Shown in pieces: positions 302 to 40,152 of a DNA stretch of 41,134 bases. The position numbers and the translations under genes are program-made. Under the pieces are notes generated by a model. That model saw only the letters and a list, made by a program, of their open reading frames with translations, was not told where the DNA came from and ran no database searches. How positions within the stretch are numbered: the stretch's first letter is position 1; each line of letters starts with the position of its first letter. The stretch lies in the IMG/VR virus record IMGVR_UViG_3300046515_000101, positions 1-41,134 of that record. The stretch is one strand, 5' to 3'. This DNA is from a virus.

Positions 302-946
302 TCACGCTGCCTTCGTCCGAAGCTTGGCCTCGTAGTCGTCGACAAGGAGCTTGAACGCCCACAGGTCGGCTTCCATGGATTCGATGTAGTCGTCATCGCG
401 CTGGAACTCGCGCCACCACAACTGTTTGCCGGCGGCTTTGAGGGCAGGGCAGTAGAGACCGATGTGCCACCACTTGCGGCCGGTGACCCACATGCACCCC
501 TGCACCTGATCGAAGACATCGCTGGCGTCGTTGTCGATGTGGAACGAACGAAGTTTCTCGGGAGCCACGAAGCACTTGTATTCAGCGCCACCGTCTTCGC
601 CGACAAGGCCGTCAGCGCTGCATCCGAAGGCGCCGTCGTCGGTCGTGACGAAGCCTGCCTCCTGCACGATCAAGCCCGTCTGCATTTCGTGTTCCATGCG
701 GGCATCAGGCTCGAGTTCGTGGCCGCGGCGCATCGACCAGGTTTCGAAACCCTGATCGAGCGGTTCGCCGCTGATGCGCTCGACGGCCAGCTTGAACGCG
801 TAGTCCAGCGCTGCCGCTGTCGGTTGACCCTTGTTAGCGCCGGTCTTGAGCTTGGCGCGTGCCGTTTCGAACATGCTGGCGGTGATGCAGCCTGCACGAC
901 TTGCGTGCCACTCGGGGCTCCCCTGTGCGCACTGGTAAACGATCAT
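302..946 (-). CDS. YqaJ-type phage exonuclease
   Basis: This is a 214-aa protein of the YqaJ/lambda-exonuclease (PD-(D/E)XK) family, which resects double-stranded DNA to leave single strands for an annealing partner. The N-terminus has the family 'QGSPEWHASRAGCITAS' region. The core follows with 'GHELEPDARMEHE', then 'FGCSADGLVGEDGGAEYKC', which carries the Asp and the E-x-K of the active site, then 'VFDQVQGCMWVTG'. The length fits the family. It overlaps the ERF annealing gene by 4 nt (ATGA), so the two form a Red-like exonuclease/annealase pair made from one transcript. Confidence is high on family and motifs. Confidence 0.93.
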   Translation of the reverse strand: MIVYQCAQGSPEWHASRAGCITASMFETARAKLKTGANKGQPTAAALDYAFKLAVERISGEPLDQGFETWSMRRGHELEPDARMEHEMQTGLIVQEAGFVTTDDGAFGCSADGLVGEDGGAEYKCFVAPEKLRSFHIDNDASDVFDQVQGCMWVTGRKWWHIGLYCPALKAAGKQLWWREFQRDDDYIESMEADLWAFKLLVDDYEAKLRTKAA

Positions 947-1758
947 GCCTTGCCCTCCGCACGACGCTTGATCTGGCCAAACTCAGTGCCGACAAGGAGG
1001 CGGCTCTTTTCGGGAAGTTCCTTCCACGCGGCGATCAGCGCTTCCATGCCGTTATCGGCGCAGGCGTAGAGGTCGGCGACGATCTTTGCCCGAGCCGGAT
1101 CTTCGGGTGACTCTGTGGATTCGGCGGCCTGCTGACGGGCCGGCGCCGATGCCTTGCAGCCGTCATCGTCAACTCCCTTCGTGGCGAGACCGAGAGCCGA
1201 CAGCAGGGTGTAGCGCTGCAGGTACGTGATCGCAGAGGCAACCGCCTGGATGGAGTTCTTCGTGCCGCTGTCTTCCTTCTGACTGCGAAGGGTGACCGTC
1301 TTGCTGTGACCCTGCGAGTGAGTGATGACGCACGTCACGGCGATCCAGCCACCTTCGGTCTGGTCGATATCCCAGCTATTCGAAAGGCCGTGCTTCGCCA
1401 TGGCCGGGATCGCGGCGTCCGTCACGTCCGACAACTCGGCGTGGTTGTACGAGGTCGAGCCCTTCGCAGTCTGGAAGTGAACGCGCTTGCGCTTGAGGAT
1501 TTCGACGGTCTCGGCCTTAAAGCCCGACATCGCCAGGTCGAATGCTTTCTTCGCCTGGCTGGCCTCCCAGCGCTCGTTCATCGCCATCAGGCGTTCCATC
1601 TGGTCGAGGTTGGCGCCCTGAGACATCGCCATGACCAGAAGGTCGGCTGGGGTCGGGGTGGACACCATGGCGCGCTGAGGCGGCGCCTGAGTCTCGGTGA
1701 CGGGCTCAAGGGCCAATTCACCTTCGATGATGTCTTCGTTGCTGATTGAGTCGGTCAT
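943..1758 (-). CDS. erf: ERF-family single-strand annealing protein
   Basis: This 271-aa protein is of the ERF (essential recombination function) superfamily, as in phage P22, and would anneal the 3' strands made by the neighbouring exonuclease. The family core lies at roughly residues 60-185: 'KKAFDLAMSGFKAE', then 'YNHAELSDVTDAAIPAMAKHG', then 'QAVASAITYLQRYTLLSALGL', and the acidic 'VDDDG' end. The C-terminal third is lower in complexity. The ATG at 1758 lies 8 bp after the coiled-coil gene stop and has only a weak Shine-Dalgarno, so coupled translation is likely. Confidence 0.93.
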   Translation of the reverse strand: MTDSISNEDIIEGELALEPVTETQAPPQRAMVSTPTPADLLVMAMSQGANLDQMERLMAMNERWEASQAKKAFDLAMSGFKAETVEILKRKRVHFQTAKGSTSYNHAELSDVTDAAIPAMAKHGLSNSWDIDQTEGGWIAVTCVITHSQGHSKTVTLRSQKEDSGTKNSIQAVASAITYLQRYTLLSALGLATKGVDDDGCKASAPARQQAAESTESPEDPARAKIVADLYACADNGMEALIAAWKELPEKSRLLVGTEFGQIKRRAEGKA

Positions 1759-8516: not shown

Positions 8517-8719
8517 ACACGACCATGAAAGCGATTCTTGGTGTTCTTTCCGTTGGTCCCAACACGGTGCCTTTCCTGGTGAAGGCCACCAGCCGTAGCG
8601 ACAACTACGTGCGCCTCTGCCTTGAGCAGATGGAGGGTATGGGAAGGGTCCGGCGTGGGTCGATTACCCGAACTCAGCGCATGGGTCGCCGCCCGTCCAT
8701 GTGGGAGCGTATCGCATGA
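8513..8719 (+). CDS. Small winged-helix-like protein (68 aa)
   Basis: The start overlaps the preceding stop (ATGA). The sequence reads as a minimal winged helix: 'VPFLVKATSRSDNYVRLCLEQMEGMGRVRRG', with a basic tail. It is probably a DNA-binding accessory factor. Confidence 0.65.
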   Translation: MNTTMKAILGVLSVGPNTVPFLVKATSRSDNYVRLCLEQMEGMGRVRRGSITRTQRMGRRPSMWERIA

Positions 8720-9096
8720 CCGCCGTCCACGACCAAGTCGTCCAGCAGTACCGCTCCGGCAAGGCTGTCGATGCGATCGCCGCATCGGTCGGATACACGA
8801 CCCGGGCGATTCGCCGGATCCTGCAGAAGAAAGACACGCCGGTTCCGCGGTTCCCTGGCCGTTGCGCCTCGATCATTCGAAAGCCCGTCGCTTCGTTCCA
8901 GTCGCGACCCGATGGCGAGTACGCCCAGTGCAAGCGCTGCGATCGCCTCGGCTACGGGATCGACTCATGGCATCCGGCCACCACCGAATTCTGGAACGTC
9001 GAGTACGGCCGGATTCGCTACGACCGCTGTCGCGCCTGCATCAGCGAAATGAAGGTCAACGCTCACGGCGTGGTGCCGGGGAGGGTGGAGGCTTGA
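8716..9096 (+). CDS. Helix-turn-helix plus zinc-finger-like protein (126 aa)
   Basis: The start at 8716 (ATGA overlap) is preferred over the frame from 8701. The N-terminus resembles a resolvase or transposase helix-turn-helix ('VVQQYRSGKAVDAIAASVGYTTRAIRRIL'). Two Cys pairs, 'CKRC' and 'CRAC', about 35 residues apart could bind zinc. Its stop is embedded in the TTG start of the methylase. The role is unknown. Confidence 0.68.
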   Translation: MTAVHDQVVQQYRSGKAVDAIAASVGYTTRAIRRILQKKDTPVPRFPGRCASIIRKPVASFQSRPDGEYAQCKRCDRLGYGIDSWHPATTEFWNVEYGRIRYDRCRACISEMKVNAHGVVPGRVEA

Positions 9097-9929
9097 CTCC
9101 TAATCGACCCATCGTCAGGTATCACGGCGGCAAGTGGAAGCTTGCGCCTTGGATCATCAGCCACCTACCGCCGCACCGGACATACGTCGAGCCCTTCGGT
9201 GGTGGCGGGTCCGTTCTTCTGCGGAAGCCGCGAAGCTATGCCGAAATCTACAATGACCTCGACGGCGAGATAGTCAACGTCTTCCGGATGATGCGTGACC
9301 ATGGGCCTGAACTCCGCGAGGCCATTCGGCTAACGCCATTCAGCCGGGCCGAATTCGCCGGCGCGTACCTTCCGTCCGACGAGCCTGTAGAACAGGCGCG
9401 GAGAACCATACTACGCAGTTTCCAGGGCTTCGGATCGGCTGCTGCATGCGGTGAACTATCCGGGTTTCGGGCCAACAGAAATCGCTCCGGGACGACCCCC
9501 GCGCATGACTGGGCCAACTATGCCGACGCTACCGAGATGCTCGTAGACCGGTTACGTGGGGTCGTGATCGAACAGCGCGATGCCATGGCGGTGATGCTCC
9601 ATCAAGACAGTGCCGAGACGCTTCACTACGTCGACCCACCCTATGTCCACTCGACTCGCTCAGTGAAGGTCAACCATGACCTTTCCCGGAAGTCGTACAA
9701 GCACGAGCTGACCGACGATATGCACGAAGCGCTGGCCAGCGGCTTGCATGGGCTTCGCGGGATGGTCGTTCTGTCAGGTTATCCGTCAGACCTCTACGAG
9801 CGCCTCTACCACGGGTGGCACCGTATCGACAGAGCAGCTCACGCTGACGGTGCGCGTGATCGTGTCGAAAGCCTATGGCTAAACGACGCCGCCTACGATG
9901 GACAGAGCCAAGGGAGGCTTATCGCATGA
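9093..9929 (+). CDS. DNA adenine methylase (Dam/D12 class)
   Basis: This 278-aa protein is read from a TTG at 9093 that overlaps the previous stop (TTGA) and has GGAGG just upstream. It shows the N-terminal 'YHGGKWKLAPWI', motif I 'VEPFGGGGSVLL' for S-adenosylmethionine binding, and motif IV 'DPPY' for catalysis at adenine N6. It acts on phage DNA, probably to resist host restriction or time replication. No partner nuclease lies nearby, so it is an orphan enzyme. Its target site cannot be read from the sequence. Confidence 0.9.
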   Translation: MTPNRPIVRYHGGKWKLAPWIISHLPPHRTYVEPFGGGGSVLLRKPRSYAEIYNDLDGEIVNVFRMMRDHGPELREAIRLTPFSRAEFAGAYLPSDEPVEQARRTILRSFQGFGSAAACGELSGFRANRNRSGTTPAHDWANYADATEMLVDRLRGVVIEQRDAMAVMLHQDSAETLHYVDPPYVHSTRSVKVNHDLSRKSYKHELTDDMHEALASGLHGLRGMVVLSGYPSDLYERLYHGWHRIDRAAHADGARDRVESLWLNDAAYDGQSQGRLIA

Positions 9930-14163: not shown

Positions 14164-14444
14164 TGGTCCGCCGCTGGTTCCGGAAGACGTTTGGCCCTGA
14201 CTACTCGGCGGCTGACAGGCTTCGCCCGTTCATAAAGCGTATGGCGCAGATGGATATCCAGAGGAGCAAGCCATACGTCGACCCGGTGTTGAATTTCATG
14301 CGCAGCCTGCCCACGGAGCAGAAGGCCAGGGCGCGATTCCACTGGTCTGCTGGCAACTGGCAGATGAGCGACAGGGAAAAGATCCGGGTCGTGACCCTGT
14401 ACAAGCAGGCAGGCTGGCCGGGTATGGATCTATCCAATGGCTAG
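14163..14444 (+). CDS. Hypothetical basic protein (93 aa)
   Basis: The ATG at 14163 shares a base with the previous stop (TGATG) and has AGGG 8 nt upstream; a GTG at 14157 is an alternative. The protein is basic and helical and ends just inside the small terminase gene. It is not recognised. Confidence 0.55.
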   Translation: MVRRWFRKTFGPDYSAADRLRPFIKRMAQMDIQRSKPYVDPVLNFMRSLPTEQKARARFHWSAGNWQMSDREKIRVVTLYKQAGWPGMDLSNG

Positions 14445-14862
14445 GCCGAGCAAGTACACGCAAGCGGTACTGGAATCCATTGTGGAGCGCCTGAGTGGTG
14501 GCGAGCCCATGGCTCAGATTTGCCGGGACGATGGAATGCCTGCCTACCGGACTGTGAAGGACTGGATTGATGGCAAGCCCGAAGTTTCCGCAGCCATCGC
14601 GCGCGCGAGGGATGAGGGTTTCGACGCCATCGCTGCTCGGCTACGTGAGACGGCCAGGGGGCACGGAGATAGCACGGCAGATGTCCAGCGCGACAAGCTG
14701 ATCATCGACACTGACCTGAAGCTCTTGGCTAAGTGGGACCCGAAGCGCTACGGAGAGAAGGTCGCCCACGAGCTTTCGGGCGCAGTGCAGGTATCCAAGA
14801 CTGTCGAACTGACGGACGAGCAGTTGGCGGTCATCGCTGCCGGAAACGTGACGAATGGCTGA
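14437..14862 (+). CDS. Terminase small subunit-like protein
   Basis: This 141-aa protein has an N-terminal helix-turn-helix ('MARPSKYTQAVLESIVERLSGGEPMAQICRDDGMPAYRTVKDWI' region, residues 1-45) followed by helices with 'DVQRDKLIIDTDLKLLAKWDPKRYGEK'. This is the layout of phage small terminases that recognise the packaging site. It overlaps the large terminase gene by 8 nt. Confidence 0.82.
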   Translation: MARPSKYTQAVLESIVERLSGGEPMAQICRDDGMPAYRTVKDWIDGKPEVSAAIARARDEGFDAIAARLRETARGHGDSTADVQRDKLIIDTDLKLLAKWDPKRYGEKVAHELSGAVQVSKTVELTDEQLAVIAAGNVTNG

Positions 14863-16432
14863 CGGCAACGCCATCTCGCCGGCCGAGGCAGCGCGGGAAC
14901 TCCTGCGTCGTCGCCGGGCGCGTGGTTCGCTTGTCGGCTACAGCCATGCCATCACCATCCCCGGCGCTCCGGTCAGTGAGGATCCGGACGAGTGGTTGTT
15001 CAAGCCCATCGAGTCCTCCGTCGCCAAGCATCACCAGGTGACGATGGAGGCGATCGACCGATGCATTCACACCGATTACGGTCGCCTGATGATCTTCGAG
15101 CCGCCGGGCTCGGCGAAGTCGACCTATGCCAGCGTGGTGGGAACGACGTACGCCATGGGCAAGCATCCCGGGCTGCGCTGCCTCATGACCAGCTACGCGG
15201 CCACCCCGATCATCCGCCACAGCAAGCGGGCGCGGCAGATCGCCAATAGCCCTGAGTTCTCGGGAATCTGGGGCTGCACGGTCGTCGGTGGCAGCAACGC
15301 GGCGGACGAGTGGGAACTGACCAACGGCTCTGGCATGTTTGCCGCGGGCCTGATGGGTGGGCTGACATCCAGCCGTTGCGATCTGGGGATCATTGACGAT
15401 CCGGTAGCCGGCCGCGAGGAAGCGGAGTCGGAGACGATCCGAAAGAAGACCCGCGCGGCGTACGACGATGACTTCCTGACCCGCCTGAAGCCAAAGGCGT
15501 CCATCATCATCATTCAGACCCGCTGGGCCCAAGAGGATCTCGCCGGCAGCATCTTGCCCGAGGACTACGACGGCCGCAGCGGTCCGGTCGAGTGTCGTGA
15601 CGGCCAGGTCTGGGAGGTGCTGAACATCCCGGCTCAGTGTGAGCGTGCCGACGACCCTGTCGGCCGCGAGATCGGCGAGTACCTGTGGCCGGAGTGGTTC
15701 AGCGAGCGCCACTGGCAGATGTATAAGCGGAACGCCCGCACCTGGTCGTCCCTGTACCAACAGCGCCCGGTGCCCGACGAGGGCATTTACATGAAGCGCG
15801 AGAACTTCAAGCGCTACAGCCAGACGCCGGACCGGCTCCGCTACTACGAGACGAGCGACTTCGCCACCAAGAAGGACTCGGGCGACTTCACCGCGCACGT
15901 CATGTTCGGTATCGACACCGAGTCCGACATCTTCATCGAGACCGGCTTCAATGAGCAGGTTGAGACGGATAAGGGCGTGTCGGCCGGCATCGATCTGGTC
16001 AAGCTCTACAAGCCGCAGATATGGATCGGCGAGTCTGGACCCATCGAGTCTGCCATTGGCCCCGAGGTGCGTCGGCAGATGCGGAAACGGAAGACGTTCG
16101 CCGCCCGCGAGCTCATGCCAAGCATCGCGGACAAGGTCTCACGTGTCCGCGCCTTTGCCGCCCGGGTGAGCGCCGGGACCGTATGGGTGAAAGAGGGCGA
16201 GTTCGGCGACATGCTGATCGAGCAGCTGATCGCGTTCCCCGCCGGCCGCTATGACGACCTGGTCGACTGCTGCAGCCTGATCGGCCGCGCACTCGATCTT
16301 CTGATGGACGCCGAGCCGCCGCCTGCCGCTCGAGAGAAGCCCGTCATCCCCTTCAGCCGCGAACACATCGAGTCCACGGAGCGCATGCGTGCCCGGGAAG
16401 TGCAGGATCAACAGAGGTACTACCAACCATGA
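14855..16432 (+). CDS. terL: Terminase large subunit
   Basis: This 525-aa packaging motor has an N-terminal ATPase with Walker A 'EPPGSAKST' (residues 82-90), Walker B 'LGIIDDP' (about 177-183, D181/D182) and a coupling segment 'IIIIQTRW'. The C-terminal nuclease half carries 'SDFATKKDSGDFTA' and 'GRYDDLVD' acidic residues. It translocates DNA into the prohead and cuts it. Its overlap with the portal gene (4 nt) fits a packaging operon. Confidence 0.95.
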   Translation: MADGNAISPAEAARELLRRRRARGSLVGYSHAITIPGAPVSEDPDEWLFKPIESSVAKHHQVTMEAIDRCIHTDYGRLMIFEPPGSAKSTYASVVGTTYAMGKHPGLRCLMTSYAATPIIRHSKRARQIANSPEFSGIWGCTVVGGSNAADEWELTNGSGMFAAGLMGGLTSSRCDLGIIDDPVAGREEAESETIRKKTRAAYDDDFLTRLKPKASIIIIQTRWAQEDLAGSILPEDYDGRSGPVECRDGQVWEVLNIPAQCERADDPVGREIGEYLWPEWFSERHWQMYKRNARTWSSLYQQRPVPDEGIYMKRENFKRYSQTPDRLRYYETSDFATKKDSGDFTAHVMFGIDTESDIFIETGFNEQVETDKGVSAGIDLVKLYKPQIWIGESGPIESAIGPEVRRQMRKRKTFAARELMPSIADKVSRVRAFAARVSAGTVWVKEGEFGDMLIEQLIAFPAGRYDDLVDCCSLIGRALDLLMDAEPPPAAREKPVIPFSREHIESTERMRAREVQDQQRYYQP

Positions 16433-18750
16433 GCGTCCCGACGACTGAAATGCAGGCCATGAGCCTGGGCATGGCAGCAGCCGCCACCGATGGTGACGCC
16501 GCGGCAGCGAAGTCCTGCGCCAAGGAGGAAGCCGACGCCAAGTGCTGGCTCGAGAAGATCACGCAGGCTAGGAAGTTCGACGAGGGCGCTCGCAAGCAAT
16601 ACGCCCTTGACCGGAAGTACGCCAAGCGCCGGCATGGCGCTGGCATCTTCGCCGTGGACGTGCCGATCGCTGCCACCTACGTGGACATCCTGAAGGCGTT
16701 CCTCTACGCCCGAGACCCGGACGTGGATGTCTTGCCGGCCAGCTCCACCGAGCCGCCGCCGGAAGACGAACTCGTCCGTATGGCAAAACAGGCCATCGCC
16801 GCCGACCCGGCAACCAAGGACGCGATCAATCAGGCCGCACAGTCGGCGTTTGCCGAGTCGAGCCAGAAGAAGAACACCATCGTCCAGGCCGTGGCGCCGG
16901 CCGCTGCCAAGTCGCTGCAGGGTGGCGCGCTGCCCAGCGAGCTACCGCAGCTTCCCGACATCGACCCGGACAAGGACGCCGAGGCCGCAGCGCGCAGCAC
17001 GATGGACAAGATGGTCCGAGCCAAGGTCAAGGAGCTCGGCCAGCCGTATCAGCAGCGCCGCGACGACGCCAAGCAGTTCGGCTCGACGCTCGAGATCGTC
17101 ATCAGCCAGTTGTGGAAGAAGGCGCGCCTCAAGGTGAAGGCCAAGCCACTGGTTGGCTCGGGCCTGACGATCGGTATCGGCTGGCTCAAGGCCACATGGC
17201 AGGAGCGGACCGGCAATGACCCGCTCGTCGAGTCCCAGATCAATGATCTTCAGGACAACCTTGCCCGCCTGGTTGCATCGAAGCAGGAGCTTGCCGAAGG
17301 CGCGCCGAATCCCGATGAACAGATGGCCGATATCCAGCGCCAGTTGATCGGCTTGCATGCTCAGGTCGAGGTAGTGACCGCGCGCGGCCTTGCCATCGAC
17401 TTCGTGCAGGGCGAGGACATCCAGGTCGCGCCGGACTGCGGCGCCATGACCTCGTACCTTGACGCATCGTGGATTGCCCACCGGTCGTTCATGACGATGG
17501 AGGCCGCAAAGGCCGCGCTGCCGAAGCTGGGCGACAAGCTCAAGAAGGCAACGTCCTACGGTCAGGTCAAGCCGACCGACCCGAATACGCCGGTCGATGC
17601 CGGTGCCGCCACGCCTGTCGCTGCCAATGATGCCGACTCGTTCCGTACGGGAAGCTCGGCAACGGCGCCCATCGCGGATGGCGACTCGGTCTGTGTGTGG
17701 GAGGTTTGGGACAAGGATTCGAACACCGTCATCACGCTGGTCGAGGGCGTCAACTGCTACGCCCGCGATCCGTATGCGCCGAACCCAGGCACGTCGCGCT
17801 TCTACCCGTTCTTCCAGTTCGTCATCGGCGAGGTTGACGGCGCGCGCCACCCCGAGTCGCCCATCACGCGCTCGGCTCCGCTGCTCGATGAATACGACCG
17901 TGTCCGCTCCGGCTACGCTGAGCACCGCCGCCGGATCAAGCCGAAGACGGCGTTTGACAAGACCAATCTGTCCGCTGAGGAAGCGGCAAATCTTGAGGGC
18001 GGCGGCACGCAGGAGATGGTCGGTCTCAAGCCGATGGTCCCGGGAACGCCAATCAAAGACCTGCTCTCGCCGGTCGCCTATGCGCCCATCGACCCGGCGC
18101 TCTACGACACCAGCGTCATCCGCGCCGAACTGGAAATGATCTGGGGCATCCAGGAAGCCTTGTCGTCCAGCATCCGCACGGCGAAGACCGCCACGGAAGC
18201 CGAGATCCAGCAGACTGGCACGACAGCACGCACCGGCTACATGCGCGACAACCTCGACGGGATGATGGGTGAGTTGTCGGAGTACTCCGGAGAGATCGCC
18301 ATTCAGAAGCTTGATGCCGAGGATGTCAAAGCCTTGGCTGGGCCGTGGGCCCTGTGGCCGGAAGGCATGAAGATCGACGACATCGCCTCGCTGGTCACCG
18401 TGGATATCCGCGCCGGCTCGAGCGGCAAGCCCGACACGACTCGCCAGCGCCAGGCATGGGGCACCGTGATGCCCATACTGCAGAACGCCATCCTTCAGGT
18501 TGGCCAGCTCCGCGGTTCGTCGCCGCAGGACATCGCCGACTCGATCGAGGCTTTGATCGAAGAAACCCTTTCCCGTACCGGCGACCGGCTAGATGCTTCG
18601 CGCTTCCTGCCGCCGGCACCCGATGGCGACGACATGCCAAGCCAGGGTGGCCCTATGCCGCCTTCGCCCGCAGGCCCGCAACCCATTCCACTTACCGCTC
18701 CGGCAGACCCGGCGCCTACCGAAACCACCGAGGACATGACCAATGGATGA
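16429..18750 (+). CDS. Portal protein (773 aa)
   Basis: The large size and position directly after the terminase mark the portal, the dodecameric DNA channel of short-tailed phages. Visible parts include a Glu/Lys-rich N-terminal wing, an inserted helical segment (about 110-215), a core with 'SAPLLDEYDRVRSGYAEHRRRIKPKTAFD' and 'TATEAEIQQTG', and a Pro-rich C-terminus. It overlaps the scaffold gene by 8 nt. The assignment is by order, length and these core patterns. Confidence 0.82.
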   Translation: MSVPTTEMQAMSLGMAAAATDGDAAAAKSCAKEEADAKCWLEKITQARKFDEGARKQYALDRKYAKRRHGAGIFAVDVPIAATYVDILKAFLYARDPDVDVLPASSTEPPPEDELVRMAKQAIAADPATKDAINQAAQSAFAESSQKKNTIVQAVAPAAAKSLQGGALPSELPQLPDIDPDKDAEAAARSTMDKMVRAKVKELGQPYQQRRDDAKQFGSTLEIVISQLWKKARLKVKAKPLVGSGLTIGIGWLKATWQERTGNDPLVESQINDLQDNLARLVASKQELAEGAPNPDEQMADIQRQLIGLHAQVEVVTARGLAIDFVQGEDIQVAPDCGAMTSYLDASWIAHRSFMTMEAAKAALPKLGDKLKKATSYGQVKPTDPNTPVDAGAATPVAANDADSFRTGSSATAPIADGDSVCVWEVWDKDSNTVITLVEGVNCYARDPYAPNPGTSRFYPFFQFVIGEVDGARHPESPITRSAPLLDEYDRVRSGYAEHRRRIKPKTAFDKTNLSAEEAANLEGGGTQEMVGLKPMVPGTPIKDLLSPVAYAPIDPALYDTSVIRAELEMIWGIQEALSSSIRTAKTATEAEIQQTGTTARTGYMRDNLDGMMGELSEYSGEIAIQKLDAEDVKALAGPWALWPEGMKIDDIASLVTVDIRAGSSGKPDTTRQRQAWGTVMPILQNAILQVGQLRGSSPQDIADSIEALIEETLSRTGDRLDASRFLPPAPDGDDMPSQGGPMPPSPAGPQPIPLTAPADPAPTETTEDMTNG

Positions 18751-19900
18751 GACCGAAACCACCGCAGGCGCGCCGGTCGACACGACCGCCACTACCGAAG
18801 TGACTACCGATGTCACGCCGGTCACGGAGCCGGTAGACAGCGACGCCGCTGCCCTTGCCGCCTTTGACCAGGGCATTGCCGAGGTTGCGCCGGTAGCGAC
18901 CGAGGCCACGCCTGCCGCCACGACCGCCGCCGATGTGGCCGCTGCCGCTGCTGCCACGAAGGTGACGACGCCGGCCGACGCCGCGGCACCCGCTGCCGGC
19001 GGCGCGCCGCTGGTTGTGGATCACGGCCAGAAGCCCGATGCGCCGGCCAAGGTGGACGACGTTGCTAAGGTCGAAGTCCAGCCCGATCCCGAGACCGATG
19101 CAGCCGTTACGGAGCTCGGACTGAAGGGCAAGGCGGAGACCCGCTTCCGCGAGATGGCCGGCACGATCAAGACGCAGGCCCAGGAGCTTGAACCGCTCCG
19201 CGTCGAAGCCGACCGCGGCCGTGAGTGGGAGCGCCTGGTCACCGAGACCAAGGCGACACCCGAACAGTTCAGCCAGTCGCTTGGCTACCTCAGCTACATC
19301 AACTCGGGCGACCCGAAGAAGATGGGCGAGGCGTTCGACTTCCTTCTGAATGAGCTCACGAGCCTAGGCAAGAACATCGGCCGCGAGGTTCCCGGCCTAG
19401 TCGATCCCATTGCCGACCACGAAGACCTGAAGCAGGCCGTGACGTTCGGCGAGATGACGCGCGCCGCCGCGCTTGAGCTGGCCCAGCGCCGTACCGCCGA
19501 GACTCGTAACACCGAGCGCGCGACGGCCACCGAACAGCAGACCCTTCAGCAGCAGGAATTCGACAAGGGCATGACGGCCGTTGCCGACCTGAGCACGCGC
19601 CTGAAGGCTGAGAACCCGGCGCTCTTTCAGGCCAAGCTTGAGGTTCTCGCGCCGCTGCTTGATCAGGTCCGGCAGACCGTTGCGCCGTCGAAGTGGGTGG
19701 CGACCATCGAGGACATCTACAAGCGCATCCAGGTGACTGCGCCGGTTGCTGCTGCGCCCGCGCCCGCCCCGGCCGCGCGCCCACCAGTCGGCGCCATGCC
19801 GCTACGTGCAACCGGATCGGCCACGTCGATGCAACGATCCCTCAAGGGTGCCGACGAGATGGACGCCTTCAACATGGGGCTGGAAAGCGTCAACCGATAA
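18743..19900 (+). CDS. Scaffolding protein (385 aa)
   Basis: This acidic protein has a low-complexity Thr/Ala/Pro/Asp N-terminal third, a helical coiled-coil middle (about 120-300, e.g. 'TRFREMAGTIKTQAQELEPLR') and a Pro/Ala linker before a small basic C-terminal end. Its composition and position between portal and capsid are typical of podovirus scaffolding proteins, which guide capsid assembly and then leave. Confidence 0.78.
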   Translation: MDETETTAGAPVDTTATTEVTTDVTPVTEPVDSDAAALAAFDQGIAEVAPVATEATPAATTAADVAAAAAATKVTTPADAAAPAAGGAPLVVDHGQKPDAPAKVDDVAKVEVQPDPETDAAVTELGLKGKAETRFREMAGTIKTQAQELEPLRVEADRGREWERLVTETKATPEQFSQSLGYLSYINSGDPKKMGEAFDFLLNELTSLGKNIGREVPGLVDPIADHEDLKQAVTFGEMTRAAALELAQRRTAETRNTERATATEQQTLQQQEFDKGMTAVADLSTRLKAENPALFQAKLEVLAPLLDQVRQTVAPSKWVATIEDIYKRIQVTAPVAAAPAPAPAARPPVGAMPLRATGSATSMQRSLKGADEMDAFNMGLESVNR

Positions 19901-19927
19901 TCAACCAACCACAACCAAGGAACCAAC

Positions 19928-20152
19928 ATGGAAAACCAGCACAGGCAGATCAAGGGTTACCGCGAGCTCGATCAGGCCGAAATCGATCTGATGAACGAGA
20001 TCAAGTCCAAGGGCGCTGAGCTCGGCGTGCTGGTCGAAAGGCTCAAGGCCCAAGGATCGACCGACATGCGATGGGTTGCCATCGGGCAGACCAACTTGCA
20101 GCAGGGCCTCATGGCTCTGACACGAGCAGTTGCTCAGCCAACGTTCTTCTGA
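19928..20152 (+). CDS. acb2: Acb2-like anti-CBASS cyclic-nucleotide sponge (74 aa)
   Basis: This small helical protein has a strongly conserved pattern: 'HRQIKGYRELDQAEIDLMNEI' region, then 'KGAELGVLVERL', then 'RWVAIGQTNLQQGLMALTRAVAQPT' region. I recognise it as the Acb2/Tad1-hairpin family. Acb2 hexamers bind the cyclic di- and trinucleotide messengers of host CBASS immunity (and some TIR-derived signals) without breaking them. Tyr11 and Lys26, which I recall as ligand contacts in characterised Acb2, are at the same positions here. AAGGA precedes the ATG. It sits between scaffold and capsid, so it should be made in large amounts late in infection. The family call is strong; activity is untested. 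Confidence 0.85.
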   Translation: MENQHRQIKGYRELDQAEIDLMNEIKSKGAELGVLVERLKAQGSTDMRWVAIGQTNLQQGLMALTRAVAQPTFF

Positions 20153-20173
20153 ACGTAACGCCTTGACAGTAAC

Positions 20174-20220
20174 TCGCGGTGCGGCATGTTCGCATCACAG
20201 CGGCTAACGCCGCACCGCGA
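20174..20220. other. 12-bp perfect inverted repeat upstream of the capsid gene
   Basis: TCGCGGTGCGGC at 20174-20185 is exactly complementary to 20209-20220, with a 23-nt loop, in the 174-bp gap before the capsid gene. A TTGACA lies just upstream at 20163-20168. It could be an mRNA stabiliser, a processing site or part of a promoter/operator. No T-run follows. Confidence 0.55.
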
Positions 20221-20286
20221 AGCTGAAAGCCGGAGTCGCGCCCGGTAGCGCTGAATGAGAGTCGCGCCCTCGAACGCGGAGAGAAC

Positions 20287-20300
20287 AGCCCAGCAGGGCT
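20287..20300 (+). terminator. Weak terminator-like hairpin before the capsid gene
   Basis: AGCCC and GGGCT pair around AGCA, followed by a pyrimidine tract with T-runs. The stem has only 5 bp and lies just before the capsid ribosome site, so it may be a leaky attenuator rather than a true terminator. Confidence 0.3.
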
Positions 20301-20326
20301 CCTTTCCTTTTCGAGGATTCATCGCC

Positions 20327-21379
20327 ATGCCCGTCAATACCGCGCAGCTGCTTGCAGGCGCCAACTATCAGCTGCAGTCCTATGCAGCGAACGACCCGAT
20401 CGACCAGGTCAACACCGACAAGCCGTTCATGAAATGGCTGATCGCGAACAAGGCCGATTCGATCTTCGGCAACGGCATCTTCAACGAGAAGGTGCGAATC
20501 AGCAACGATTCGAACTACCAGAACTACTCCGGCGACGACCAGGTCACCTACAACCGAAAGGATGTGGTGCGCCTTGCTCCGTTCCAGCACTACGAGGCTC
20601 ATGACGGCTTCGCGCTGAACGAAACCGAGCTCGCCAACAACGGCATCATCATGACGGACGACCGCGAGGCTGTCCCGACCGAGGCCGAGAAGGTCCAGAT
20701 CGTCAACCTGATCAAGACCAACCGCGCAGCCCTGAAGGATGGCTTCCAGGAGAACTGGGACCTTGAGGTGCATCGCGACGGTACGCAGTCGGCCAAGGCG
20801 GTTCCGGGTCTGGACCTGCTCGTCAGCACCACGCCGGCTGTCGGCACCATCGGTGGTATCGACGCCTCGGCCTCGATCTACTGGCGGAACAACGCGGACC
20901 TGAACATCGCCACCGGCACGACGGGCAACCTGACTGCCGAAATGGAAAAGATGTGGCGCGCCTGCACGACCTACGGTGGCCTGATCCCGGACTTCATCGT
21001 CTGCGGCGCGGCGTTCTACGACGCCTACCGGAAGGACGCCAACCTCCAGACCAACCGCCAGGTGATCGTCACCGGCCGCGATGGCCCCGATGCTGATGCC
21101 TCCACGGACAACGTGTACTTCAAGGGCAAGCTGGTCGTCTGGGATCCGTCGTTCGAAAAGCTCGACGCCATCCTCGGTGCGATCACCTATCCGTGGACGA
21201 AGCGCTGCTACTTCCTCAACTCGAAGACCCTTCGCCTGCGCCCGGTCAAGGGTCGCTGGATGATCGACCGTACGCCGGCCCGCATGTACGACCGCTACAC
21301 GCACTACTTCGCGACCACGGCGGATTACGGCCTGACCATCAACAAGCGCAACGCGAACGCGGTGCTCTCGATCGCTTAA
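20327..21379 (+). CDS. Major capsid protein (350 aa)
   Basis: The ATG at 20327 has GAGG upstream; the longer frame from 20255 is rejected because it runs into the hairpin region. The size, the position after scaffold and the mixed alpha/beta composition fit a HK97-fold capsid protein of a short-tailed phage. Segments such as 'NYQNYSGDDQVTYNRKDVVRLAPFQ' and 'YFKGKLVVWDPSFEKL' look structural. No N-terminal propeptide is obvious, which agrees with a separate scaffold. The assignment is by context and size. Confidence 0.82.
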   Translation: MPVNTAQLLAGANYQLQSYAANDPIDQVNTDKPFMKWLIANKADSIFGNGIFNEKVRISNDSNYQNYSGDDQVTYNRKDVVRLAPFQHYEAHDGFALNETELANNGIIMTDDREAVPTEAEKVQIVNLIKTNRAALKDGFQENWDLEVHRDGTQSAKAVPGLDLLVSTTPAVGTIGGIDASASIYWRNNADLNIATGTTGNLTAEMEKMWRACTTYGGLIPDFIVCGAAFYDAYRKDANLQTNRQVIVTGRDGPDADASTDNVYFKGKLVVWDPSFEKLDAILGAITYPWTKRCYFLNSKTLRLRPVKGRWMIDRTPARMYDRYTHYFATTADYGLTINKRNANAVLSIA

Positions 21380-39278: not shown

Positions 39279-39422
39279 ATGGCCATCACGATCCCGGTCG
39301 TCTTGCTCGTGGCTATGGCCTTCGACGGCTATGTGGACCGCCTGGGTATTCGGCTGTCGAAGCTGATCGGGTCGACCCGGGATGCTGCAGGCGCGGAGTC
39401 GGCGGCCGAGTCGGTGGCCTGA
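39279..39422 (+). CDS. Possible small membrane-associated peptide (47 aa)
   Basis: The ATG at 39279 opens a short frame with a hydrophobic start ('AITIPVVLLVAMAFDGYV') and an Ala/Glu-rich end. The ribosome site is weak (CAGGG). It is low in certainty. Confidence 0.35.
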   Translation: MAITIPVVLLVAMAFDGYVDRLGIRLSKLIGSTRDAAGAESAAESVA

Positions 39423-39456
39423 CGCCGCCATCACGGCGCGGCGGTATCCTGCGGCC

Positions 39457-40152
39457 ATGTGCGGACGCTACGCCACCTTCGGACCTGTATCGCTGAGCCG
39501 CGAGGCCAAGACGGTGCTGGACCAGCTCGAGCTGTATATCGTCAGCGAGATCAACCAGCGGGAAGACCAGTTCAACATCGCGCCGACCCAGAGGGCGCTG
39601 GTGGTGTCTAGGGGCGCTGCCGGCTATGATGCCAAGGCCTTTCGTTGGGGCCTGGTGCCCAGCTGGGCCAAAGATACGAAGATCGGGGCGAAGATGATCA
39701 ATGCCCGGTCGGACTCCATCGTCCCGAAGCCGAAGCCGTCATTCCGCAATGCCTTCGCGAAGCGCCGCTGCCTGGTGCCGGCAAGTGGCTACTTCGAGTG
39801 GAAGGGCGAGTCGCCCAATAAGCAGCCGTACTTCATCCACGACCCCGCCGGTCATCTGCTGATGTTCGCGGGACTGTGGGAGGGTTGGCGGGCTTCGCCT
39901 GACGATGAATGGACCCACACATTCACCATCATCACCGGGGAGCCTGGAAAGGTCTCCGGCGACATCCACGACCGGCAGCCCGTGATCCTCCCGCCAGACC
40001 TCTGGCGGGTATGGGTCGAGGGCACGCCCGACGAGGCCAGTGCAACGCTGGTAGCGACCCCCGAGGCCGAACTCGTCTATTACCCCGTAGATACGAAAGT
40101 GGGCAGCCCACGAAACAAGGGCCCCGAGCTCGTCGAGCCGATCACGATCTGA
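39457..40152 (+). CDS. SRAP-family abasic-site protein (YedK/HMCES-like)
   Basis: This 231-aa protein begins 'MCGRYATF', placing the catalytic Cys at position 2. The other active-site residues are visible: Asn82 in 'INARSD', Glu114 in 'GYFEWKG', and His171 in 'GDIHDRQPVIL'. The family forms a covalent link to abasic sites in single-stranded DNA to protect them. The start at 39457 is fixed by the need for Cys2. It is a cellular-type repair gene carried here by the phage or acquired from a host. Confidence 0.92.
   Translation: MCGRYATFGPVSLSREAKTVLDQLELYIVSEINQREDQFNIAPTQRALVVSRGAAGYDAKAFRWGLVPSWAKDTKIGAKMINARSDSIVPKPKPSFRNAFAKRRCLVPASGYFEWKGESPNKQPYFIHDPAGHLLMFAGLWEGWRASPDDEWTHTFTIITGEPGKVSGDIHDRQPVILPPDLWRVWVEGTPDEASATLVATPEAELVYYPVDTKVGSPRNKGPELVEPITI

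Follow-up and report, generated by a model that had tools for sequence, protein, structure and literature searches.

In the present study, the 74-aa product of a small gene in an IMG/VR virus record is identified as a new member of the known Acb2 family. Its gene, acb2, is found beside a putative scaffold gene, at a position that, on the sequence evidence, is a slot in which nucleotide sponges are exchanged within the late-gene region of Luteibacter/Stenotrophomonas-type phages. The window, that is, the whole stretch of DNA analysed, is the entire record of 41,134 bases. The most informative part of the result is this position, and its role as an exchange slot was missed by the original prediction; taken by itself, the protein merely adds a member to the Acb2 family. 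Taken as a whole, the reading of an Acb2-family sponge that is made with the head proteins, and whose gene lies next to the scaffold gene in a site of exchange, is considered highly probable. No description of a scaffold-capsid sponge slot was found in the literature library searched, which covers few subscription papers.

The acb2 gene and its product

The ORF predicted at 19928-20152 occupies exactly these positions on the plus strand, with an ATG start, 74 codons and a stop; an AAGGA ribosome-binding motif lies immediately 5', and the preceding ORF stops at 19900. The product carries Tyr11, Lys26 and the terminal '...LQQGLMALTRAVAQPTFF', as had been claimed. Homologues were found in 227 phage records (tblastn) and in 166 stretches of IMG/VR, and those in phage records are nearly all labelled 'hypothetical protein', in agreement with the expectation that routine annotation would give no functional label.

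An Acb2 assignment had been proposed from the letters of the DNA, with a profile match and an antiparallel helical hairpin named among the checks, and both were borne out. First, Pfam PF24729 (Acb2_Tad1_hairpin) matched over profile positions 1-58 of 58 with 69 bits, far over the cut-off of 27 (E 3.9e-19). Second, the protein matched the sequences of two solved Acb2 structures in the PDB (8h2j, E 5.6e-17; 8ixz, E 2.2e-16), with its Tyr11 and Lys26 in register with Tyr11 and Lys26 of 8h2j, residues for which published work has described a ligand-binding role in the cyclic dinucleotide site of Acb2. Among 47 aligned homologues, three residues (K26, W49 and R66) show no variation, and three more (Y11, R48 and F74) are conserved in at least 90%. 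Third, the AlphaFold2 monomer model (pLDDT 88.5) is a hairpin of two helices (16-42 and 47-69) with no strands, and all six Foldseek matches with E <=0.001 were Acb2 (E 3.3e-5 to 9.8e-5, probability 1.00), the best being 8h2j (E 3.3e-5, probability 1.00, TMq 0.75). A Tad1 identity was rejected, as the protein has two helices only and no N-terminal beta core, and its best PDB matches are Acb2, not Tad1.

The window protein thus shares profile, sequence and predicted fold with the Pseudomonas phage Acb2 proteins (8h2j, 8h2x, 8ixz), including the aligned Tyr11 and Lys26, and has its start (MxNQH) and its end in common with them. However, it has 74 residues compared with 93 in Pseudomonas phage Acb2, and its inter-helix loop is about 19 residues shorter than that of 8h2j, which makes its hexamer and ligand range less certain. 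The closest homologues in phage records mostly match over 74 residues and likewise do not have this loop. T4 Vs.4 (Acb2, 7uq2), which ranked after the Acb2 structures in Foldseek, has the same hairpin fold and a conserved IKGY motif that includes T4 Tyr8, although its sequence is very distant (phmmer E 0.41) and T4 additionally has the Acb1 nuclease. The Y8A change in T4 Acb2 abolishes dinucleotide binding (PMC12657218). Two other sponges have folds unrelated to Acb2 and are missing from the window: Acb4 (phage SPO1, PDB 9e4w), the cyclic-nucleotide sponge to which PF13876 corresponds (PMC11722364), and Tad2 (PF11195; 8v3e, 9eib, 8sme), the ligands of which are those of Thoeris together with cyclic dinucleotides.

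The slot beside the scaffold gene

The original prediction had placed the gene between scaffold and capsid genes, and it is found there, within a head-gene cluster with the following features.

14437-14862, plus strand: terminase small subunit (phrog_1482, E 2.2e-31)
14855-16432, plus strand: terminase large subunit (phrog_38, E 3.3e-81)
16429-18750, plus strand: portal protein (phrog_12082, E 2.1e-12)
18743-19900, plus strand: putative scaffold protein, 385 aa, named by position alone; 5' border of the slot
19901-20173, plus strand: proposed exchange slot, from the scaffold stop to the capsid leader; holds acb2 in the window
19928-20152, plus strand: acb2, 74-aa Acb2-family (PF24729) predicted cyclic-oligonucleotide sponge
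20174-20316, plus strand: structured RNA leader of the capsid gene; 3' border of the slot
20327-21379, plus strand: major capsid protein (phrog_9953, E 2.3e-36); start moved from ATG 20255

A profile search with the 385-aa ORF gave no PHROG match, so the name 'scaffold' follows from its position. For the capsid gene, ATG 20327 is a more probable start than ATG 20255, since the alignment of many homologues begins only at about residue 16-25.

A total of 56 capsid relatives were found in IMG/VR, and whole-record family searches were performed on 50 records, namely the window and 49 of its capsid relatives. The commonest slot family was PF13876 (Acb4), present in 11 of the 50 records, followed by PF24729 (Acb2) in five, and by PF11195 (Tad2; L092, L097 and L098) and PF21825 in three each. 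The Acb2, Acb4 and Tad2 matches number 19, in 18 of the 50 records, and are confined to two places: 17 lie between scaffold and capsid, and the remaining two between portal and scaffold. With PF21825 added, the corresponding figures are 20 and two of 22. The summed scaffold-capsid slots make up 24.4 kb of 1.67 Mb (1.47%) over the 50 records. As these records are kin, the enrichment is purely descriptive: the events are not independent, and it does not serve as a test. Among the 56 IMG/VR relatives, acb2 lies between scaffold and capsid only in L091 and L096 besides the window; it lies between portal and scaffold in L102 and L108, as it does in a Stenotrophomonas maltophilia D5.1 prophage (L144). 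A search with the leader RNA added seven further relatives, with Acb4 between portal and scaffold in one (L246) and, followed by the tail described below, directly before the capsid gene in another (L273). Mutual exclusion of Acb2 and Acb4 was considered and set aside: no record holds both, yet the expected overlap is only about one record (5/50 and 11/50).

The contents of this position have been swapped, with recombination in the conserved flanks formed by the scaffold gene and the capsid leader, as read directly from pairs of relatives. For example, L109 holds a protein with an N-terminal SWSP domain and a helical hairpin where L116 holds Acb4; these inserts are unrelated, and the DNA of the flanks is 96.7% identical on the left and 97.4% on the right. 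Likewise, L122 (a KKPV-domain protein) and L134 (an SWSP-hairpin protein) have unrelated inserts between flanks of 94.6% and 98.8% identity, and the empty slot of L113 can be set beside the Acb4 slot of L116, with flank identities of 93.4% and 97.5%. In occupied slots, the right breakpoint is constant and coincides with the start of a C-terminal tail (consensus ALTDADADADLAGTPRPDNPGLNTNAA) that is common to the Acb4, Tad2, SWSP-hairpin and KKPV heads. The window acb2 does not have this tail and is bordered on the right by the capsid leader. Two records hold combinations, with Acb4 and Tad2 adjacent in one slot (L097) and Acb4 fused to a crAss001_48 hairpin (L094). An ERF-type annealing protein (PF04404) is encoded at window positions 943-1758 on the minus strand and is a plausible agent of the exchange.

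The location of acb2 between scaffold and capsid genes might also suggest that the 74-aa protein is an accessory of head assembly, such as a decoration or scaffold-binding protein, with an incidental likeness to Acb2, and the homologues of unrelated phages are indeed often located in head clusters. This explanation is very improbable, as the Acb2 match is strong in family, residues and fold, and other homologues adjoin recT or lysis genes. Moreover, the closest relative (L082) does not have acb2 despite a capsid of 97% identity, its scaffold stop being followed almost directly by the conserved capsid leader, and unrelated sponges fill the slot in other relatives. The lack of the gene in L082 indicates that acb2 is dispensable in this phage group.

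Several anti-defence genes (Acb2, Acb4 and Tad2) are found at one conserved locus across the relatives, and the window holds one of them. In other words, the slot is similar to the anti-defence islands of phages, in which counter-defence genes are also gathered at one locus across relatives, and Acb genes have been noted to cluster with counter-defence genes in such islands (PMC11722364). The slot differs from these islands in three respects: it holds one or two genes of a single functional class (nucleotide sponges), it lies within the head cluster, and its swapped heads precede a common tail. The location in a scaffold-capsid slot also sets acb2 of the window apart from the Acb2 of Pseudomonas phages.

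The known clustering in islands is also consistent with a broader explanation, in which the slot is a tolerant moron site for any small accessory gene and sponges are over-represented because they are common small genes. This explanation is further favoured by slot ORFs of no known family in L091, L129, L131 and L137, and by some slots of about 680 bp without a clear gene. Nevertheless, only one of the 50 records examined for other phages with Acb2 contains PF13876, compared with 11 of 50 here; all 19 sponge genes are located beside the scaffold gene; and the slot proteins for which a family of known function could be assigned are, without exception, sponges. A general moron site is thus regarded as somewhat unlikely, and an exchange slot for sponges is preferred.

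Proposed function and hosts

Judged from the protein sequence and its model, an anti-CBASS sponge activity of the 74-aa protein is likely. Acb2 is known to assemble into hexamers with distinct sites for dinucleotides and for trinucleotides (PMC12043709). Herein, we propose that the window protein would, by analogy, assemble like these hexamers and bind cyclic di- and trinucleotides from the CBASS cyclases of the host. Since the genes lie on one strand with short gaps, acb2 would be expressed late together with the head genes. Late expression would fit the finding that, in unrelated phages, six of the nine annotated records inspected (a non-random sample) have their Acb2 homologue within a head or packaging cluster. 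The messengers would then be sequestered during particle assembly, and the effector would stay off until the phage is assembled. In related Xanthomonadales phages, the sponge in the slot might be exchanged to match the alarm nucleotide of the host, a purpose that we infer.

The nearest capsid in bacterial genomes is that of a Luteibacter sp. SG786 prophage (91% identity), followed by capsids of Stenotrophomonas and [Pseudomonas] boreopolis. In the phage collection, the top-ranking capsid has only about 31% identity, and the collection therefore holds no close sequenced isolate of this group. Of nine genomes that contain related prophages, three gave a match to SMODS, the CBASS-type cyclase domain. 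In the one locus that was read (L237), the gene for an oligonucleotide cyclase (PADLOC, E 3.5e-143) precedes that for a CBASS HORMA protein (E 1.2e-84). This cyclase and HORMA pair, at L237:1474-2962, belongs to Stenotrophomonas sp. VV52, and the related prophage (L140) has Acb4 in its slot.

If the Acb2 fold has been retained but the ligand has changed, to a different host cyclic nucleotide or a Panoptes-type decoy for example, the effect would not be mainly anti-CBASS. Acb2 homologues vary in ligand range (PMC12043709), Panoptes can be triggered by Acb2 (PMC12657218), the inter-helix loop of the window protein is much shorter than that of 8h2j, and no SMODS match was obtained in the Luteibacter genome that carries the nearest prophage capsid. 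Despite these points, the residues linked to binding of cyclic dinucleotides are retained, and CBASS-type cyclases are present in three of the nine related-prophage genomes; another ligand is thus considered improbable, and a sponge acting mainly against CBASS is favoured.

Other slot occupants and the capsid leader RNA

Several slot proteins belong to no characterised sponge family. The SWSP N-terminal domain (GTKxxxAWP...DGYxSWSPKDVFE; L134:3398-3859, L148-L227) is mobile, and is found fused to the crAss001_48 hairpin, to Acb4, to Tad2, or to the hairpin plus Tad2, and may represent an uncharacterised component of modular sponges. The model of the SWSP-crAss001_48 protein (pLDDT 89.9) has a beta core and two long helices. 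An assignment of this protein (L109, L134, L147) to Tad1 was rejected, since none of the Foldseek matches of the model reached E <=0.001 and Tad1 did not appear in the 50 that were listed. A profile link of the protein to Acb2 was sought and not found, and its polyubiquitin matches were dismissed as repeat artefacts. The KKPV domain ('MYRKKPVVIEA') is followed by the common tail in the slot proteins L122:3470-3859 and L136:3494-3850. It gave no Pfam or PDB match and only PHROG matches, almost all of unknown function, one of which (phrog_419) joins the KKPV domain to an Acb4-like end; the KKPV slot protein is a candidate counter-defence protein. Searches for a Pfam or PHROG family gave no match for the slot ORFs L091:3251-3619, which is directly 5' of the L091 acb2, L129:3392-3823 and L131:3399-3794. 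The slots of about 680 bp contain minus-strand ORFs, which were rejected as genes, as they have no family match.

The presence of unrelated proteins, swapped between near-identical flanks, suggests that the slot may record the alarm nucleotides that these phages faced. The testing of further slot occupants is a simple route to new counter-defence genes, and the mobile SWSP fusions to Acb4, Tad2 and a helical hairpin in other phages point toward the same route. We tentatively suggest, with somewhat less than even confidence, that the scaffold-capsid gap is a dedicated site of sponge exchange, that its occupants SWSP-crAss001_48, KKPV and the unassigned ORFs of L091 and L129 are new sponges or counter-defence proteins, and that the common tail and the leader RNA are the borders of recombination.

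The leader RNA consists of a long hairpin (20174-20220) and a covarying core (about 20216-20316), with a fold z-score of -3.4. It is present in all capsid relatives except L100, and the exact core pattern occurs in 51 IMG/VR stretches. In the alignment, 93% of cells are paired, compared with 31-46% when the alignment is slid, and compensatory changes are observed in five pairs. A search of Rfam gave no match at the gathering threshold, and the sub-threshold matches were attributable to chance only. The leader is possibly an element of translational control or processing of the capsid mRNA. Elsewhere in the window, a D12-class adenine DNA methyltransferase (8622-9929, plus strand, PF02086) possibly protects against restriction, and an SRAP (SOS response associated peptidase) protein is encoded near the end of the record (39382-40152, plus strand, PF02586, E 1.5e-63).
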